Shown in pieces: positions 13,082 through 18,323 of a stretch of DNA of 64,000 nt; position 1 is the stretch's first letter, and each line of letters opens with the position of its first letter. The position numbers and the translations under genes are program-made. Location: NCBI RefSeq assembly GCF_016907715.1, contig NZ_JAFBCM010000001.1, positions 3,038,001-3,102,000 of the forward strand. Reading direction: 5' to 3'. Under the pieces are notes generated by a model. The model was not told the DNA's origin. It made no database searches and saw only the letters and a list, made by a program, of their open reading frames with translations. This DNA comes from Tenggerimyces flavus (GTDB taxonomy: Bacteria; Actinomycetota; Actinomycetes; Propionibacteriales; Actinopolymorphaceae).

Positions 13082-13318
13082 TCAGGTGACGTGGTTGGGG
13101 GAGTCCGCGTTGGCTTGGTCGGCTTGTCTGGCCTCTTCGGCGTAGAGGCGGGCGATGAAGGCCTCGAGCTCAGTGACCTCCACCCGGTAGATGCCCTTGT
13201 CGGGGATGCGCACCGCGCGGAGGTCGTGTCGTCGCACGAGGGCCTTCACCTGGCTGACGGACACGTTGAGGATCTCGGCGACGTCCTCGAGCTTCAGGAA
13301 CCTCGGCGTCGACATCAC
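13082..13318 (-). CDS. Small BldC/excisionase-type helix-turn-helix protein
   Basis: A 78-residue protein: MSTPRFLKLEDVAEILNVS begins a MerR/excisionase-like winged HTH (about residues 5-60), followed by a short acidic tail. The sequence LNVSVSQVKALVRRHDLRAV is the recognition helix and turn, and IYRVEVTELEAFIARLY is the last helix. A sibling of the same length lies at 15.8 kb. Family members such as BldC bind direct repeats cooperatively and control development. No integrase is nearby, so I favour a host regulator over an excisionase. Confidence 0.85.
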   Translation of the reverse strand: MMSTPRFLKLEDVAEILNVSVSQVKALVRRHDLRAVRIPDKGIYRVEVTELEAFIARLYAEEARQADQANADSPNHVT

Positions 13319-13442: not shown

Positions 13443-14060
13443 TCAGCCCAGCACCAGGGCCGTGCACTGCCAGCGGCCGTCGAGGCCCTCCATCCGCACC
13501 GCAACCGCGCGGGAGCGGCCGCCGTGCTTGATGTGCACCGCGGACTCCGCGACGCCGTCGCGGGGCTCGGACACGTGCACCGAGCGGACCACGGCCCGGC
13601 CGAGACCCGTGCGTACCGCGGCGGTCGTCGACAGCCCGAGGGCGCTGACCCGGCTCACCACGTCGGCGAACACCTCGTCGTTCGTCCACCGCGCCAGCTG
13701 GGTCGCCGGGCGGTCGCCCGCCAGCACCTCGACCAGTGCCTGGACGAAGCGCCCGCACCACGGCTTCGGGTGCGGCAGCGCCTCCCGCGCGGTCGGCTGG
13801 CGCGCGAAGAACTTGTCCTCGCCGTCCTCCTCGTCCCGGCGGCGCCGAGACGTACGGACGACGGTGAGGTGCCTCGGCTCGATGATCTCCGGGGCCGGCG
13901 AGCTGGTCCGGAGGTCGAGTGCCAGCGTCCCCTGGGTCGCCGGCTGGTCGTGGGAGCCGTAGCCGCGCTCGTCGTCGTAGGGCGGCTCGGCCACCGGTAC
14001 GGGGACTCGACGCGGCAGGCGACGAACGTTCGTGCCGGTCAGCGTTGCGTTGGCGGTCAT
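13443..14060 (-). CDS. Rv3235-like (DUF6459-type) conserved protein
   Basis: A 205-residue protein. The first ~95 residues are charged and low complexity. The conserved domain (about 100-205) contains WCGRFVQALVEVLAGDRPATQL and ends RWQCTALVLG, the typical Rv3235-family ending. The family has an NTF2-like fold, is confined to actinobacteria and is commonly encoded next to secA, as here. No function is established. It is followed on the same strand by the small HTH gene and preceded by the LysM gene, and may be cotranscribed with them. Confidence 0.8.
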   Translation of the reverse strand: MTANATLTGTNVRRLPRRVPVPVAEPPYDDERGYGSHDQPATQGTLALDLRTSSPAPEIIEPRHLTVVRTSRRRRDEEDGEDKFFARQPTAREALPHPKPWCGRFVQALVEVLAGDRPATQLARWTNDEVFADVVSRVSALGLSTTAAVRTGLGRAVVRSVHVSEPRDGVAESAVHIKHGGRSRAVAVRMEGLDGRWQCTALVLG

Positions 14061-14114: not shown

Positions 14115-14918
14115 TCAGGACGATCCGGCCTGGCCCGGCGGGGCCTTGAGGAGCTGACCGGGGAGGATCAGGTCGGGATCTTCGCCGATCACCTGGCGGT
14201 TGGCGTCGTACCACCGGTGCCACTCGCGGGTGATCTCGGCGCCGCTCGCGCCGTCGGGCAGCGTTGCCTTGGCGATGTCCCACAGCGTGTCGCCGCGCTT
14301 CACGACGTGCTCCTGCACATCGCTCACGTCGCGGGTCGGCGCCCGCGTCACCGGGTCGTTCGTGTTCGGGCGGTCCGCCGTGGGCAGCCCGGGGGTGCTC
14401 GACAACGGCCGGTCCGGCATCGAGATCTGGTCCGCGGCGTCGGCACCGCCGACACGGTCCAGGTTGGGAAGCTCGAAACCACCGGGGAGGGTGGTGCCGG
14501 GACGGTCGAGGTTGGGCATCGTGCTGGTGACCGCGGTCTGGTTGAGGTGGTCGGTGGTCGCCGCCTGCGCCGGCAGGATGCCGCCGAGAACGGGACCGGC
14601 CGTGACCGCGATACCGAGCGCGACCCGCGCCGCGCGGCGGTAGACCGCGGGCGTGATCTTCTCGGCGAGCGCACCGCACGCGGCACCCACCGCGCCCGGG
14701 ATCACCGACAGCGCCATCAGCAGCGTGCCGAACGCGAGCCAGACGAAGCAGGCCCACGCGAGCACCGACACCATCGCGATCAGCAGCGCGTCGAACGTGA
14801 GCGGGCCGGACACGACCGCCTCGATCGTGCCGCGAGTGAGCCAGCGCAGGCCCCACCCGCCCAGCACAAAGGCGGCAAGCACCCCGATCGGGGAGAGGAT
14901 CTTCCGCACCATCCTCAT
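14115..14918 (-). CDS. Membrane-anchored LysM-domain protein
   Basis: A 267-residue protein. ATG 14918 is preferred because GGAGG lies 7 bases before it and the product starts with hydrophobic MRMVRKILSPIGVLAAFVL. There are two N-terminal membrane segments (about 10-30 and 45-70) and a third near 105-125. A low-complexity linker follows, then a C-terminal LysM domain (about 205-262, HVVKRGDTLWDIAKATL to LILPGQLLKAP), which binds peptidoglycan. It probably links membrane and cell wall. A two-unit GTTTGC decamer array lies 19-38 bp before the start. Confidence 0.8.
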   Translation of the reverse strand: MRMVRKILSPIGVLAAFVLGGWGLRWLTRGTIEAVVSGPLTFDALLIAMVSVLAWACFVWLAFGTLLMALSVIPGAVGAACGALAEKITPAVYRRAARVALGIAVTAGPVLGGILPAQAATTDHLNQTAVTSTMPNLDRPGTTLPGGFELPNLDRVGGADAADQISMPDRPLSSTPGLPTADRPNTNDPVTRAPTRDVSDVQEHVVKRGDTLWDIAKATLPDGASGAEITREWHRWYDANRQVIGEDPDLILPGQLLKAPPGQAGSS

Positions 14919-14936
14919 CACTTGGCCTCCGAACCC

Positions 14937-14956
14937 TTCGTTTGCGTTCGTTTGCA
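14937..14956 (+). promoter_or_regulatory. Decamer direct-repeat array 1 (GTTTGC type)
   Basis: Two units in perfect 10-bp register: TTCGTTTGCG and TTCGTTTGCA. It sits immediately upstream of the leftward LysM gene. The same motif with the same spacing recurs at 15192 and 16170. Candidate binding site for a BldC-like protein. Confidence 0.55.
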
Positions 14957-15191
14957 TTGATATCCCGTCAGTAGCTTGGATGTCAAGCGGGATGCCTTCG
15001 GTACTGGTCTCTGACGCGTGCGTGATGTCAACGGATCCCACCTCTGACCAGGAATTTCACGGCTCACTGTCCGAAATGCCCAACTCTTCGGTTACCCATC
15101 CTCCGCCCACACGCATCCGGGCCGCGAACCGGTTCAAGCCCTGGAATTGGCCTCGACGAGCGTCGAGCTGGCTGCCTTCAGGCCCGGATAC

Positions 15192-15221
15192 CTGCGTTTA
15201 CCTACGTTTGCTTGTGTTTGC
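15192..15221 (+). promoter_or_regulatory. Decamer direct-repeat array 2 (GTTTGC type)
   Basis: Three units in 10-bp register: TGCGTTTACC, TACGTTTGCT, TGTGTTTGCC. It lies 45 bp before the rightward gene at 15266 and in the divergent region with the LysM gene. Confidence 0.6.
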
Positions 15222-15265
15222 CTGGCGAGCGAGGGTCGCCGAGGCAGGGCCGCTAGCGTGGGCGC

Positions 15266-15817
15266 GTGCGTTGGGAGAACCTCTTCGCCGACCTCGATGC
15301 CCAGCTGGAAGAGCTCGAGGCGGCAGAACAGTCGGCCGAAGTCGCCGACCGGACTCGTCGTGAGATCGCCACGTTCCGGCTCGTCGATCGGCTGCGGCCG
15401 GCGTTCGGGCACCCGGTCACGGTGCACACGCTCGGCGGCAAGGTCGCCGGCCGGATCGCCGGCGTGGGTACGGACTGGTTGCTCGTCACCGAGGACCACC
15501 GGGCCGAGGCGCTGGTGCCGCTCGACGCGATCACCGGGATCGTCGGGCTGGGCGCGCTGACGGCGGCGCCGGGCAGTGAGGGCAAGGTGGCGGCGAAGCT
15601 GACGCTGGGCTACGCGTTGCGCGGGATCGCGCGCGACCGAGCGCCGGTCGCGGTCGCGCTGCGGGACAACGTGATCGTCACGGGCACGATCGACCGGGTC
15701 GGTGCGGACTTCTTCGAGATGGCCGAGCACGCACAGGGGGAGATTCGTCGCCGTAGCGAGGTCGCCGGCGTGCGTACGGTCCCGTTCGCGGGCGTCGGCT
15801 TCGTCCGCCGCTCCTGA
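15266..15817 (+). CDS. Conserved actinobacterial hypothetical protein
   Basis: A 183-residue protein from GTG 15266. Residues 1-35 are a Glu-rich predicted helix (LDAQLEELEAAEQSAEVADR). The rest looks like two small beta domains: GHPVTVHTLGGKVAGRIAGVG to EALVPLDAITGIVGLG, and APVAVALRDNVIVTGTIDRVG to RTVPFAGVGFVRRS. The strand pattern resembles Sm/PRC-barrel folds, but no family was recognised. It is convergent with the small HTH gene and stops 2 bp before it. The upstream decamer array suggests regulation by the neighbouring HTH protein. Confidence 0.65.
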   Translation: MRWENLFADLDAQLEELEAAEQSAEVADRTRREIATFRLVDRLRPAFGHPVTVHTLGGKVAGRIAGVGTDWLLVTEDHRAEALVPLDAITGIVGLGALTAAPGSEGKVAAKLTLGYALRGIARDRAPVAVALRDNVIVTGTIDRVGADFFEMAEHAQGEIRRRSEVAGVRTVPFAGVGFVRRS

Positions 15818-15819
15818 GC

Positions 15820-16056
15820 CTAGAAGGCCTCTTCACCCTTACCGAACGGATGCGCGTCGATGAACGTCTTGGTCTCGGAGTACATCCGCTCGATGTACGC
15901 CTCCAAGGCCGCCGACTCGACCCGCCACTGGCCACGGCCGCCGATCTTGATCGCCGGAAGCTCACCGCTGCGGACCAGCGCATACGTCTGCGCGGCCGAG
16001 ATGTTCAGGATCTCGGCAACGTCGGTCAGCTGCAGGAACCTCGCCGTGCCAGCCAT
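15820..16056 (-). CDS. Second small BldC-like helix-turn-helix protein
   Basis: A 78-residue protein. ATG 16056 has GGAGGG 8 bases before it and yields MAGTARFLQLTDVAEILNIS, closely parallel to the 13.1-kb HTH protein. The winged HTH covers residues 4-60 (AQTYALVRSGELPAIKIG, GRGQWRVESAALEAYIERMY), and a short tail follows. It binds DNA and is probably a transcription factor. Three arrays of a 10-bp direct repeat lie in the three intergenic regions around it, one 114 bp before its own start, which suggests autoregulation. Confidence 0.85.
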   Translation of the reverse strand: MAGTARFLQLTDVAEILNISAAQTYALVRSGELPAIKIGGRGQWRVESAALEAYIERMYSETKTFIDAHPFGKGEEAF

Positions 16057-16169
16057 CTCATCTCCCTCCGCGGGTCCGCGCCACACCTCGGACCACCCAG
16101 CTCGGTCACTCTCAGAAACGCTCGAGCACGCTCAGACACCCGTAAGAACAGTGCATGACGAGTCTGCCA

Positions 16170-16199
16170 CGCGTTTGCCTGTGTTTGCGTTCGGTTGTC
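16170..16199 (+). promoter_or_regulatory. Decamer direct-repeat array 3 (GTTTGC type)
   Basis: Units CGCGTTTGCC and TGTGTTTGCG, followed by a degenerate third, TTCGGTTGTC, in 10-bp register. It lies between the leftward small HTH gene and the rightward SAF/CpaE-like pair, so either could be controlled. Confidence 0.55.
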
Positions 16200-16235
16200 C
16201 ACAGCTGAGTCGGCGAGTTCGCAGCCTGTGGAAAC
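16195..16235. promoter_or_regulatory. Pair of inverted DnaA-box-like sites
   Basis: TTGTCCACA (16195-16203) equals the DnaA-box consensus used in high-GC actinobacteria. TGTGGAAAC (16227-16235) is a weaker inverted partner, TTTCCACA on the other strand. There are only two sites, so this is not an origin; a DnaA-regulated promoter or chance are both possible. Confidence 0.35.
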
Positions 16236-16369: not shown

Positions 16370-17020
16370 TTGTCGGATGTGCCCTCGCCTAAGGCCTCCC
16401 GCCAGCGCTTGCCCCGCTGGCTGGACCCCAAACTGATCCTCGGGATCCTGCTCGTGCTCGGCTCCATGGCGGCCGGTGCCCGCATCCTGTCCGACAACAA
16501 CCGGACAGTCGAGGTGTGGGCGCTCAAGGCCGACCTCGCCGCGGACGCCAACATCGCCGAGACCTCGCTGGTCGCGACCAGCGTCCGGTTCACCAGCAAG
16601 ACGAACGCGGACCAGTACGTCTCGGCGGCCAAGTTCCCCAACGGCGCCCGCATGCTGCGCAAAGTCAACAAGGGCGAGTTCCTGCCGCGGAACGCGTTCA
16701 CCACCGAGGAAGACAAGAGCAACCTCGTCGACCTGCCGATCCCGATCGCCGCGCAGTTCATCCCCGCCGGCGTCGCGGTCAACAAACGGGTGGACGTCTA
16801 CGTCGTCCCCGACGAGTCCAAGGCCGTGCCGAAGGACGGCTTCAAGGTCCTCGAGGACGTGGTGGTGACGAGCGTTCCACGCGAGGCCGGCCTCACCGGG
16901 TCGAACGACTCCAAGGTCACGCTCCGGTTCGGAGTCGACCCCGAGAAGATCGACATCGACACCGTCGTCTCCAAGCTGGTCACCGGCACCGCGGTCGTCG
17001 TGCTTCGCGTGGGGAAGTGA
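16370..17020 (+). CDS. SAF-domain protein, CpaB/RcpC-like pilus assembly factor
   Basis: A 216-residue protein from TTG 16370, placed 7 bases after GGAGGG. A basic cytoplasmic N-terminus precedes one membrane segment (about 22-42, LILGILLVLGSMAAGARIL). An extracytoplasmic SAF domain follows (about 48-110, VEVWALKADLAADANI), then a CpaB-type C-terminal region. In Tad/Flp systems RcpC/CpaB is the envelope protein linked to the secretion channel. The CpaE-like gene follows by 7 bp. The rest of the tad genes lie 39 kb away. Confidence 0.75.
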   Translation: MSDVPSPKASRQRLPRWLDPKLILGILLVLGSMAAGARILSDNNRTVEVWALKADLAADANIAETSLVATSVRFTSKTNADQYVSAAKFPNGARMLRKVNKGEFLPRNAFTTEEDKSNLVDLPIPIAAQFIPAGVAVNKRVDVYVVPDESKAVPKDGFKVLEDVVVTSVPREAGLTGSNDSKVTLRFGVDPEKIDIDTVVSKLVTGTAVVVLRVGK

Positions 17021-17027
17021 CCGACCG

Positions 17028-18323
17028 ATGAGCCTTCCCGTCCTCACGGCCGTGACCGGGGCGCGCTGGGAGTCCGACCTGGTCGAGGCGCTCGAGCGCA
17101 GCTCGCACGGCCTGGATGTCGTACGCCGGTGCGTCGACCTGCCCGACCTGCTCGCGACCGCGGCGTCGGGGCAGGCTCGTGCGGTCCTGCTGTCGGCGGA
17201 CCTGCGCCGGCTCGACCGCGAGTCGATCGCTCGGCTCATCTCCGGCGGCGTCGCCGTCGTCGGTGTGGTCTCACCGGGCGACGCCGAGGGCGAGGACCGG
17301 CTGCACCGGCTCGGCATCGCGAAGGTCGTTCCCGCCGACGCGACGGCCGAGGTGCTCGCCGGGGCGGTCGCCGAGGCCGTGGAGCTGTCCACCGGTGCGC
17401 CGGCGGCGGTCTCCGACTACACGGTCTCGACCCCGCAGCGCACGATGCCGAATCTGCCGCCGGTCGAGGACATCCCGCCGTACGAGGCGCCCACCGGTAC
17501 CGGGCAGCTAGTCGCGGTATGGGGCCCGACGGGCGCACCGGGGCGTACGTCGATCGCGGTGACGCTGGCGTCGGAGATGGCGCTGTTCGGCGTTCCGACG
17601 CTGCTCGCCGACGCCGACGTGTACGGCGGCGTCGTCGCTCAGACGCTCGGGCTGCTCGACGAGGCACCCGGCCTCGCGGCGGCCTGCCGTTCGGCCAACA
17701 ACGGCTCGCTCGACCTGCAGGCGCTCGCCCGGCACGCCCGCGAGGTGCTGCCGCGGCTGCGGGTGCTGACCGGCATCCAGCGCGCCGACCGCTGGCCCGA
17801 GCTGCGCGCGTCGGCGATCGAGCAGGTCTGGGAGACCGCGCGGCAGCTCGCCGCCGCGATCGTCGTCGACGTGGGGTTCAGCCTCGAGTCCGACGAGGAG
17901 ATCTCGTTCGACACCGCGGCGCCCCGCCGCAACGGAGCCACGCTGACCACGCTGGAGATGGCCAACACCGTCATCGCGGTCGGTGGCGCCGACCCGGTCG
18001 GCCTGCAGCGCCTCGTCCGCGGTGTGGCCGAGCTGCGGGAGGCCGTGCCGACCGCGAACATCCGGGTGATCGCGAACGCGGTCCGCAAGGGCCCCGTCGG
18101 CAGCAACCCCGAGAGCCAGATCCGCGACGCGCTGATGCGCTACGCGGGAGTCGACGACGTCGTGTGCGTGCCGTACGACCGGGTCGGCTTCGACGCCGCG
18201 CTCGCCCAGGGCCGGACGCTCGCCGAGGTCGCGTCGGGCTCAGCCGCCCGCACCCAGCTGCGCCAGCTCGCGGCGTCGCTTATGGGCATCCCGCTCGGCA
18301 AGAAGGGCCGTCGCCGCCGGTAG
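17028..18323 (+). CDS. CpaE/TadZ-like MinD-family ATPase with degenerate Walker A
   Basis: A 431-residue protein. The N-terminal receiver-like domain (1-125) lacks an obvious phosphorylation motif. A low-complexity linker follows, then a ParA/MinD-type domain (about 158-415) with LVAVWGPTGAPGRTS (Walker A at 166-175). The usual Lys is Arg173, so ATP hydrolysis may be weak or absent. Later motifs are LLADADVYGG and IVVDVGFSLE. TadZ/CpaE proteins localise Tad pilus machines. The Lys-less P-loop is known among TadZ proteins. Tail KKGRRRR is basic. Its stop is followed by family B copy 1. Confidence 0.8.
   Translation: MSLPVLTAVTGARWESDLVEALERSSHGLDVVRRCVDLPDLLATAASGQARAVLLSADLRRLDRESIARLISGGVAVVGVVSPGDAEGEDRLHRLGIAKVVPADATAEVLAGAVAEAVELSTGAPAAVSDYTVSTPQRTMPNLPPVEDIPPYEAPTGTGQLVAVWGPTGAPGRTSIAVTLASEMALFGVPTLLADADVYGGVVAQTLGLLDEAPGLAAACRSANNGSLDLQALARHAREVLPRLRVLTGIQRADRWPELRASAIEQVWETARQLAAAIVVDVGFSLESDEEISFDTAAPRRNGATLTTLEMANTVIAVGGADPVGLQRLVRGVAELREAVPTANIRVIANAVRKGPVGSNPESQIRDALMRYAGVDDVVCVPYDRVGFDAALAQGRTLAEVASGSAARTQLRQLAASLMGIPLGKKGRRRR

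Follow-up and report, generated by a model that had tools for sequence, protein, structure and literature searches.

GTTTGC repeats one helical turn apart as candidate operators of an excisionase-type winged-helix protein in a competence-linked gene block of actinobacteria

Introduction

Which protein reads a short DNA word that recurs once per helical turn in front of several neighbouring genes, and what would it control? The question is raised by a 64,000-nucleotide stretch of the Tenggerimyces flavus genome (assembly GCF_016907715.1, contig NZ_JAFBCM010000001.1, positions 3,038,001 to 3,102,000; hereafter the window), in which three arrays of the direct repeat GTTTGC lie around a small gene, termed HTH2 here, that encodes a 78-aa helix-turn-helix (HTH) protein. 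The other genes concerned encode a cell-wall-binding LysM protein, a hypothetical protein (HYP) and an SAF/CpaE-like pair. A first-pass annotation of the window had proposed that HTH2 is BldC-like and governs a small self-regulating circuit; its observation is confirmed here and its interpretation is partly supported. With a probability of roughly 0.68, the arrays are operators of HTH2, which would bind them as head-to-tail multimers and repress LysM from the array over its start. This is the best reading because the array tracks HTH2 across genomes, HTH2 is predicted to fold like Xis and DNA-bound BldC, and the unit spacing is one turn of the helix. What was observed holds, and its generality goes beyond what the annotation could know: a conserved putative operator and an adjoining DnaA element in a competence-linked block.

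Three arrays in helical register

Exact GTTTGC-N4-GTTTGC pairs occur on the forward strand at three sites, within a few bases of where the first-pass annotation had placed them and in the 10-bp register that it had described. Array A (14940..14955, + strand) has two units, GTTTGC-GTTC-GTTTGC, and overlaps the predicted LysM transcription start. Array B (15196..15221, + strand) lies about 45 bp 5′ of the HYP gene and has three units, GTTTAC-N4-GTTTGC-N4-GTTTGC; its exact pair spans 15206–15221 and the one-mismatch unit GTTTAC extends it to 15196. Array C (16162..16198, + strand), in the divergent HTH2/SAF promoter, reads GTCTGC-N5-GTTTGC-N4-GTTTGC-N4-GGTTGT, with an exact pair at 16173–16188 flanked by two degenerate units: GTCTGC at 16162, at a distance of 11 bp, and GGTTGT at 16193, which keeps the register. 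The idea of one array in each intergenic region needs a small correction: A and B share the region between LysM and HYP, C lies between HTH2 and SAF, and in the window there is no array between the convergent HYP and HTH2 genes.

The window shows no enrichment of lone GTTTGC words (17 against 14.8 expected), so it is the 10-bp register, rather than the word count, that is special; in-register pairs with at most one mismatch number four, where 100 shuffles gave 0.15 on average (maximum 2). A genome scan for units 10 bp apart, as the first-pass annotation had proposed, found four exact pairs in the single contig of 8,519,422 bases, three of them in this block; the chance of three of four genome sites falling within 1.3 kb is, as a rough figure, ~1e-7. 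The fourth exact array (G000:C1:3427217; L091 6218–6233) lies 3′ of a terminator-like stem and 5′ of an acetolactate-synthase-like open reading frame. We rejected it as a further target, given this position in an ilvB leader after a terminator-like stem, and it is probably a chance occurrence in an attenuator. A chance origin of the three arrays in the block is itself rejected by their rarity in the genome together with their conservation.

Conservation across relatives

Among 57 related genomes, 35 carry an exact array, at 50 sites in total. Assigned by hand from their coordinates, 40 of these sites lie within 2 kb of an HTH2 or HYP match, nine lie elsewhere and one is uncertain (G051, 5.3 kb from HYP), so the arrays are not abundant at unrelated sites, the outcome that the first-pass annotation had said would count against it. 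A reversed control pattern gave 19 matches in the same 57 genomes. In one limited literature collection that we searched, we found no earlier description of the array.

The array-bearing relatives include Actinopolymorpha, Kribbella and Nocardioides. HTH2 also occurs in Frankia, Phycicoccus, Terrabacter, Acidothermus, Jatrophihabitans and others, and examples of each such genus have the array between HYP and LysM (L184, L132, L151, L155, L174). In the Nocardioides genomes compared, the HTH2–SAF–CpaE group is 0.1–1.5 Mb off or on another contig and the array remains at LysM. Several loci without a LysM match have it positioned before the DUF6459 gene. A draw of 246 genomes from the class held HTH2 (E ≤ 1e-10) in 124, HYP (E ≤ 1e-4) in 117 and both in 110; the neighbourhood surveys covered eight proteins of the window.

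The three arrays differ in how widely they are kept. Array A has counterparts in Actinopolymorpha, Kribbella, Nocardioides and further families. A second, B-like array is found in five of seven other Actinopolymorphaceae loci (L014 and L016–L019, not L015 or L020). The block of array C is conserved in five Actinopolymorpha loci, three of which keep the GGTTGT unit in the alignment, and takes a variant form in Kribbella. Across the sequences compared, the constant position of the array is the LysM/HYP promoter, and the arrays look like an old control switch of actinobacteria.

Anatomy of the repeat

A logo of 75 distinct sites has bases outside the selected word that recur every 10 bp: T-3 (0.76), T+7 (0.88), T+17 (0.77) and G+20 (0.79). 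Because these are conserved, the working unit can be written GTTTGCnTnn, in a block that reaches a third unit. When same-strand pairs of GTTT[GA][CA] within 45 bp were counted in 98 regions, 62 fell at 10 bp, three at 20 bp and none at 9 or 11 bp, and the remaining spacings were scattered singles and pairs; control stretches of 2.8 kb gave three pairs at 10 bp and one at 11 bp. The proposal of one helical turn per unit is borne out by these 62 pairs.

Arrays and HTH2 occur together

Is HTH2 the protein that reads the arrays? The HYP/LysM region was scanned over 800 bp in 107 loci, calling an array where at least 11 of 12 bases matched; 97 distinct promoters were left once repeated contexts had been dropped. 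An array is present in 65 of the 76 promoters whose locus holds an HTH2 at least 60% identical (64 in the usual orientation and one, L298, inverted), and in 5/8 where HTH2 lies elsewhere in the genome, a group with three loci that have only ~55%-identical copies. The total is 70 of 84 promoters whose genome holds HTH2 versus 0 of 13 where HTH2 is diverged or not found, made up of 0/9 where it is less than 50% identical and 0/4 where it was not found or the contig ends, at the same threshold. Before de-duplication the tally was 74/88 with close HTH2, against 1/88 on the opposite strand and 20/88 in downstream control windows, a place where array C can fall. The reversed unit CGTTTG had also served as a control (69/88 promoters; 36 against 59 over all loci of one set) and was discarded: it overlaps CGTTTGC and is therefore unfair, so the opposite strand and the downstream windows were used instead.

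The array follows HTH2 and not HYP, since of 13 loci with close HTH2 and DUF6459 and no HYP match, nine keep it. In G010 and G026, where HTH2 is 56–59% identical, the array position holds GTTTGA units instead.

Two further groups of loci have diverged HTH2 proteins. G265 (L302, L303, L364) has two HTH2-like paralogues, 51–56% identical and away from LysM, and its LysM promoter carries GTTTAC-type units; a changed specificity is possible there. Family f39 (L299, L350–L358) has HTH2 below 50% identity, keeps HYP and DUF6459, and has neither a LysM match nor a GTTTGC array, with the DnaA box described below kept in several members.

Tandem repeats with a period near one helical turn are bound by response regulators of the OmpR/PhoB type as well. 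The arrays might be operators of such a protein, or of HTH1, a paralogue of HTH2 in the window, with HTH2 a mere neighbour. We consider this unlikely, though less so than the other alternatives. It would suit Nocardioides, where the array remains with LysM and not with HTH2, and G067, whose best HTH2 match is a distant one (E 1.7e-8) and in which a decayed array, GTTTAA/GTTTAC, matches at 10 of 12 bases. Because this decayed array survives, G067 is no clean natural knockout, and the use of HTH2-less genomes as natural knockouts was given up: apart from G067 there are G169 and G123, with no array at 11 or more and a contig end in G123, which is too few. An HTH1-like copy was not seen in other Actinopolymorphaceae genomes, yet the array is present in many families, and none of the promoters with a diverged HTH2 (9/9), or with none found (4/4), has an array at 11 of 12 bases or better. 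Each genome holds few exact arrays, unlike the regulon of a global regulator, and the MtrA box GTCACAGCG, as given in PMC4285127, does not match the array.

The predicted fold of HTH2

HTH2 (15820..16056, − strand), the proposed array binder, matches Pfam HTH_17 (E 3e-14, 53.4 bits against a cut-off of 27) and the excisionase-type model TIGR01764 (37.7 bits against 28.8). Its AlphaFold2 model (pLDDT 88.6) is a small winged helix with a single C-terminal helix (47–67), a short tail and no further domain. In Foldseek the closest structures are the Xis of phage Pukovnik and DNA-bound BldC. A second aligner gave Z 7.6 for BldC (6ama), 7.5 for the BldC–DNA complex (6amk; rmsd 1.3 over 51 residues) and 7.3 for Xis (4j2n). 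When the Protein Data Bank (PDB) was searched with a sequence profile, BldC was absent from the matches at E ≤ 5. The mad1 models of an antiphage system match HTH2 as well, at a score far under their threshold (27.3 bits against an NCBIfam cut-off of 80).

The LysM promoter: repression or activation?

The LysM gene (14115..14918, − strand; Pfam LysM E 7e-5) encodes a protein whose N-terminus looks membrane-spanning by eye, and its start was chosen from a GGAGG ribosome site at 14926–14930. Upstream, a −10 hexamer TATCAA (14957..14962, − strand) and, 18 bp from it, a −35 hexamer TTGACA (14981..14986, − strand) are predicted, read by eye together with the sequences of relatives. TTGACA recurs at the equivalent place in five Actinopolymorpha array-A sequences and in some Nocardioides; Kribbella has a longer spacing at this promoter, again read by eye. 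Array A lies between the TTGACA-18-TATCAA promoter and the LysM ribosome site, and on this predicted layout its position is that of a repressor.

Alternatively, HTH2 may be an activator or a DNA-bending architectural protein at these sites, which we regard as improbable. Activation would be possible from about 45 bp upstream of HYP, where array B stands, or from 80–150 bp upstream, where arrays often stand elsewhere; BldC moreover bends DNA by ~50 degrees (PMC5859096). Array A, on the predicted start site of LysM, does not fit activation, nor does the counterpart system of Micrococcus luteus considered below, in which com expression goes up when the HTH gene is changed, the outcome expected of a lost repressor, whether or not the effect is direct.

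HYP, a predicted tandem Hfq-like protein

HYP (15266..15817, + strand) was annotated as hypothetical, and no family in Pfam or the other models scanned reaches its cut-off. Its AlphaFold2 model (pLDDT 91.8) has a long N-terminal helix and two five-strand barrels. The top Foldseek row is the viral protein ORF137 (2x4j, E 1e-3); the rows are mostly Hfq chains, several with rmsd 1.0 over 67 columns (best Hfq E 1.1e-2), which align to one barrel at a time with a TM-score to the target of up to 0.84. HYP is thus predicted to be a tandem Hfq-like protein of the Sm fold; the Sm barrel is common to it and Hfq, and it differs by joining two of them in a single chain after the N-terminal helix. Actinobacteria are not known to have Hfq, and a tandem Hfq-like protein in this group merits its own study.

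The array might also act as RNA, HYP or another RNA-binding protein gripping the repeat GCAAAC-N4-GCAAAC that array A would form in the 5′ leader of LysM, close upstream of its ribosome site, and so controlling translation, but this is very unlikely despite the predicted Sm fold of HYP and the suitability of A-rich repeats for the distal face of Hfq, since the array is kept in nine of 13 loci without a HYP match (some of which may hold a diverged HYP), is inverted relative to LysM in L298, differs in position and strand relative to the genes at arrays B and C, and is spaced by one turn of DNA.

DnaA boxes in the HTH2/SAF promoter

The HTH2/SAF promoter holds a second element, a DnaA box TTGTCCACA (16195..16203, + strand) whose bases overlap the degenerate unit that ends array C. 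All five aligned Actinopolymorpha loci retain the word. PMC4285127 (Table 1) lists it for Streptomyces coelicolor and Mycobacterium tuberculosis as the high-affinity DnaA box, and TTATCCACA for Escherichia coli and Bacillus subtilis. The pattern TT[AG]TCCACA occurs in 42 of 119 distinct HTH2/SAF regions, in many families, versus 0.16 expected from single-base shuffles. A count by record gave 59 boxes in the 28.7 kb of HTH2/SAF regions and 10 in the 1.10 Mb that make up the rest of the same loci, a density ~225-fold higher in the former. Five permuted box words gave no match in the HTH2/SAF regions, and the HYP/LysM region holds a DnaA box in one case of 95. As the box word occurs 87 times genome-wide (the reversed word 63 times), one occurrence means little, and it is the recurrence at this promoter across families that counts. 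Four loci with diverged HTH2 and no arrays (L299, L352, L355, L358) keep the box, which makes it an independent element. The sequence trait of a DnaA-controlled promoter, a high-affinity box, is present here.

A link to competence through Micrococcus luteus

What output might the block have? In M. luteus, nearly all sequenced mutants with raised comEA/EC expression carry a change in one of three places: an HTH_17 gene, the leader of that gene or the SAF gene divergent from it (PMC8467076). The change R64W in the HTH_17 protein Mlut_14660, introduced alone, gives again the raised comEA/EC activity first seen in the mutant. When introduced singly, one leader change and one SAF change reproduce the effect, and another leader change does not. 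When the SAF gene is lost, comEA/EC expression rises and transformation falls 10^4-fold, and a knockout of the HTH gene was not obtainable. The authors propose transcriptional interference and leave binding to the com promoter for verification; in the sections of that paper covered here, no operator is named for Mlut_14660. Similar gene arrangements are reported for Geodermatophilus, Rothia, Jonesia and Cellulomonas (PMC8467076).

In the Mlut_14660–Mlut_14650/14640 locus, the HTH_17 gene is divergent from an RcpC/CpaB-like SAF gene, Mlut_14650, followed by CpaE. Because the arrangement is the same, Mlut_14660 is the likely counterpart of HTH2, an assignment by gene order and by domain as the paper describes them. 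We infer, by spacing only, that M. luteus S27, S46 and R64 fit HTH2 positions 11, 30 and 48. Arrays, a DnaA box and a LysM/HYP target are described for the HTH2 side only, as far as the consulted sections of PMC8467076 go.

Of 37 genomes, 36 gave a ComEC match, and comEA/EC stretches from 20 of these were scored for pairs of the GTTTGC unit only. As no pair there reaches 11 of 12 bases and one (L271) reaches 10 of 12, we rejected the idea that the array controls comEA/EC directly. Competence would therefore be an indirect output, perhaps through HYP.

How well the operator reading stands

Several results weigh against HTH2 as the repressor that reads the arrays. The decayed array of G067 and the lack of arrays at comEA/EC, both given above, are among them. 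The association of array and HTH2 has a Fisher value of 4e-9, uncorrected for relatedness, and such p-values overstate independence because many loci are close relatives. Of the 76 promoters whose locus holds a close HTH2, eleven score no array at the threshold applied; four of these (L166, L174, L294, L361) have one outside the 800 bp scanned and the remainder have none at that score, the miss in L078 being likewise an artefact of the 800-base limit. Outside Actinopolymorphaceae and Kribbella, where it is regular, an array at the promoter of HTH2 itself is limited to single cases (L135, L199 and L291). In the structural comparison no Foldseek match of HTH2 reaches E 0.001 (best 3.1e-3), and the highest Z, 7.8, belongs to 6hn7, a small phage-related protein, at rmsd 3.8, Z values of 7–8 being middling. 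A consensus promoter scan called no LysM promoter, the −10 hexamer lacking its final T; that promoter is a by-eye call. Mlut_14660 is equated with HTH2 by gene order and domain.

The earlier picture of a self-regulating circuit is not supported as it was stated, given the restricted distribution of the own-promoter array, and it had overlooked the DnaA boxes and the link to competence.

A proposed mechanism and its meaning

If HTH2 does bind the arrays, a filament at array A would cover the LysM transcription start and repress LysM, and array B would set the divergent HYP gene. Array C would serve HTH2 autoregulation and control of SAF–CpaE in this family and in Kribbella, and the DnaA boxes in the HTH2/SAF promoter would act as an input from the replication initiator. 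By comparison with the M. luteus counterpart, the circuit would probably hold competence-related functions down in rich medium, with the com genes as indirect targets.

A more far-reaching and tentative proposal, which we think has clearly less than an even chance, is a class-wide switch in which DnaA at the HTH2/SAF–CpaE promoter and the HTH2 filament at the arrays compete or cooperate, coupling the replication state to surface and DNA-uptake functions. The arrays would dose the membrane LysM protein and the Hfq-like HYP, and HYP would carry the signal post-transcriptionally to the competence genes. Such a switch would explain the raised com expression of the M. luteus mutant despite the lack of an array at comEA/EC in the genomes examined.

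Where the M. luteus screen pointed to an HTH_17 gene (PMC8467076), the array offers a concrete and conserved candidate operator. Candidate direct targets are LysM, the Sm-fold protein and, in some families, HTH2 and SAF–CpaE; the DnaA input was unexpected.

The surrounding gene block

The genes run in the order secA (+), HTH1 (−), DUF6459 (−), LysM (−), arrays A and B, HYP (+), HTH2 (−), array C, SAF (+) and CpaE (+), and the stop codons of the convergent HYP and HTH2 are 2 bases apart. The SAF/RcpC–CpaB-like gene (16370..17020, + strand) is placed like Mlut_14650 as the text of PMC8467076 describes it. Pfam SAF scores above its cut-off in two of five relatives scanned (E 2e-6 and 2.3e-6) and gives no match for the window's own protein. 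The CpaE/Ssd-like ATPase follows (17028..18323, + strand), with a TIGR03815 match at E 1.6e-9 that lies under the cut-off of that model. The DUF6459 gene (13443..14060, − strand) lies between secA and LysM.

HTH1 (13082..13318, − strand), between secA and DUF6459, is 52% identical to HTH2, and its wing reads IPDKGIYRVE where that of HTH2 reads IGGRGQWRVE. In the other Actinopolymorphaceae genomes searched there is no comparable second HTH copy, second matches being at most 36% identical. A Kribbella genome (G022) has a second match at 54% identity with an internal stop.

Comparison with known systems

How does HTH2 compare with the families that it resembles? Classical MerR proteins differ in binding a palindromic site, in contrast to the same-strand repeats here. 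Xis proteins (4j2n; TIGR01764) share the small winged-helix fold, and HTH2 scores above the cut-off of their sequence model. Known Xis proteins bind tandem sites cooperatively. HTH2 differs from them in its setting, a conserved chromosomal block beside secA, DUF6459, LysM, SAF and CpaE in many families.

A further comparison is with BldC of Streptomyces (6ama, 6amk; PMC5859096). Like BldC, a small winged helix without a separate dimerisation domain, the 78-aa HTH2 model is a small winged helix without a C-terminal effector domain. Both are associated with direct repeats in variable number about one turn apart, two to four units here, as counted on the DNA, and mostly conserved hydrophobic residues of HTH2 match the head-to-tail interface of BldC at a helix offset of 5. 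The differences lie in how the bases are read. BldC recognizes AATTXXXX(C), with 9 bp per protomer in crystals, whereas the HTH2-linked arrays are GTTTGC at 10 bp. BldC Arg30, the YpG contact on the recognition helix, corresponds in both alignments to an invariant Ala25 in HTH2, since the BldC helices 14–21 and 25–34 against 9–16 and 20–29 in the model give the offset of 5. BldC has His46 in the wing; the conserved HTH2 wing IGGRGQWRV is without His, the exact equivalent being uncertain as the two wings are unequal in length by one residue. The label BldC-like, given by the first-pass annotation, therefore fits the predicted fold, which resembles Xis and BldC, and not the base-reading residue or the site. 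HTH2 is not a BldC by its base-reading contacts or its site and, on the predicted model, probably works like one. Head-to-tail assembly on direct repeats, as in BldC, may also be the mode of this separate, widespread family, whose helical phasing is very regular, and if the BldC-like mode is true, the code that relates recognition helix to repeat unit could be compared between the two families.

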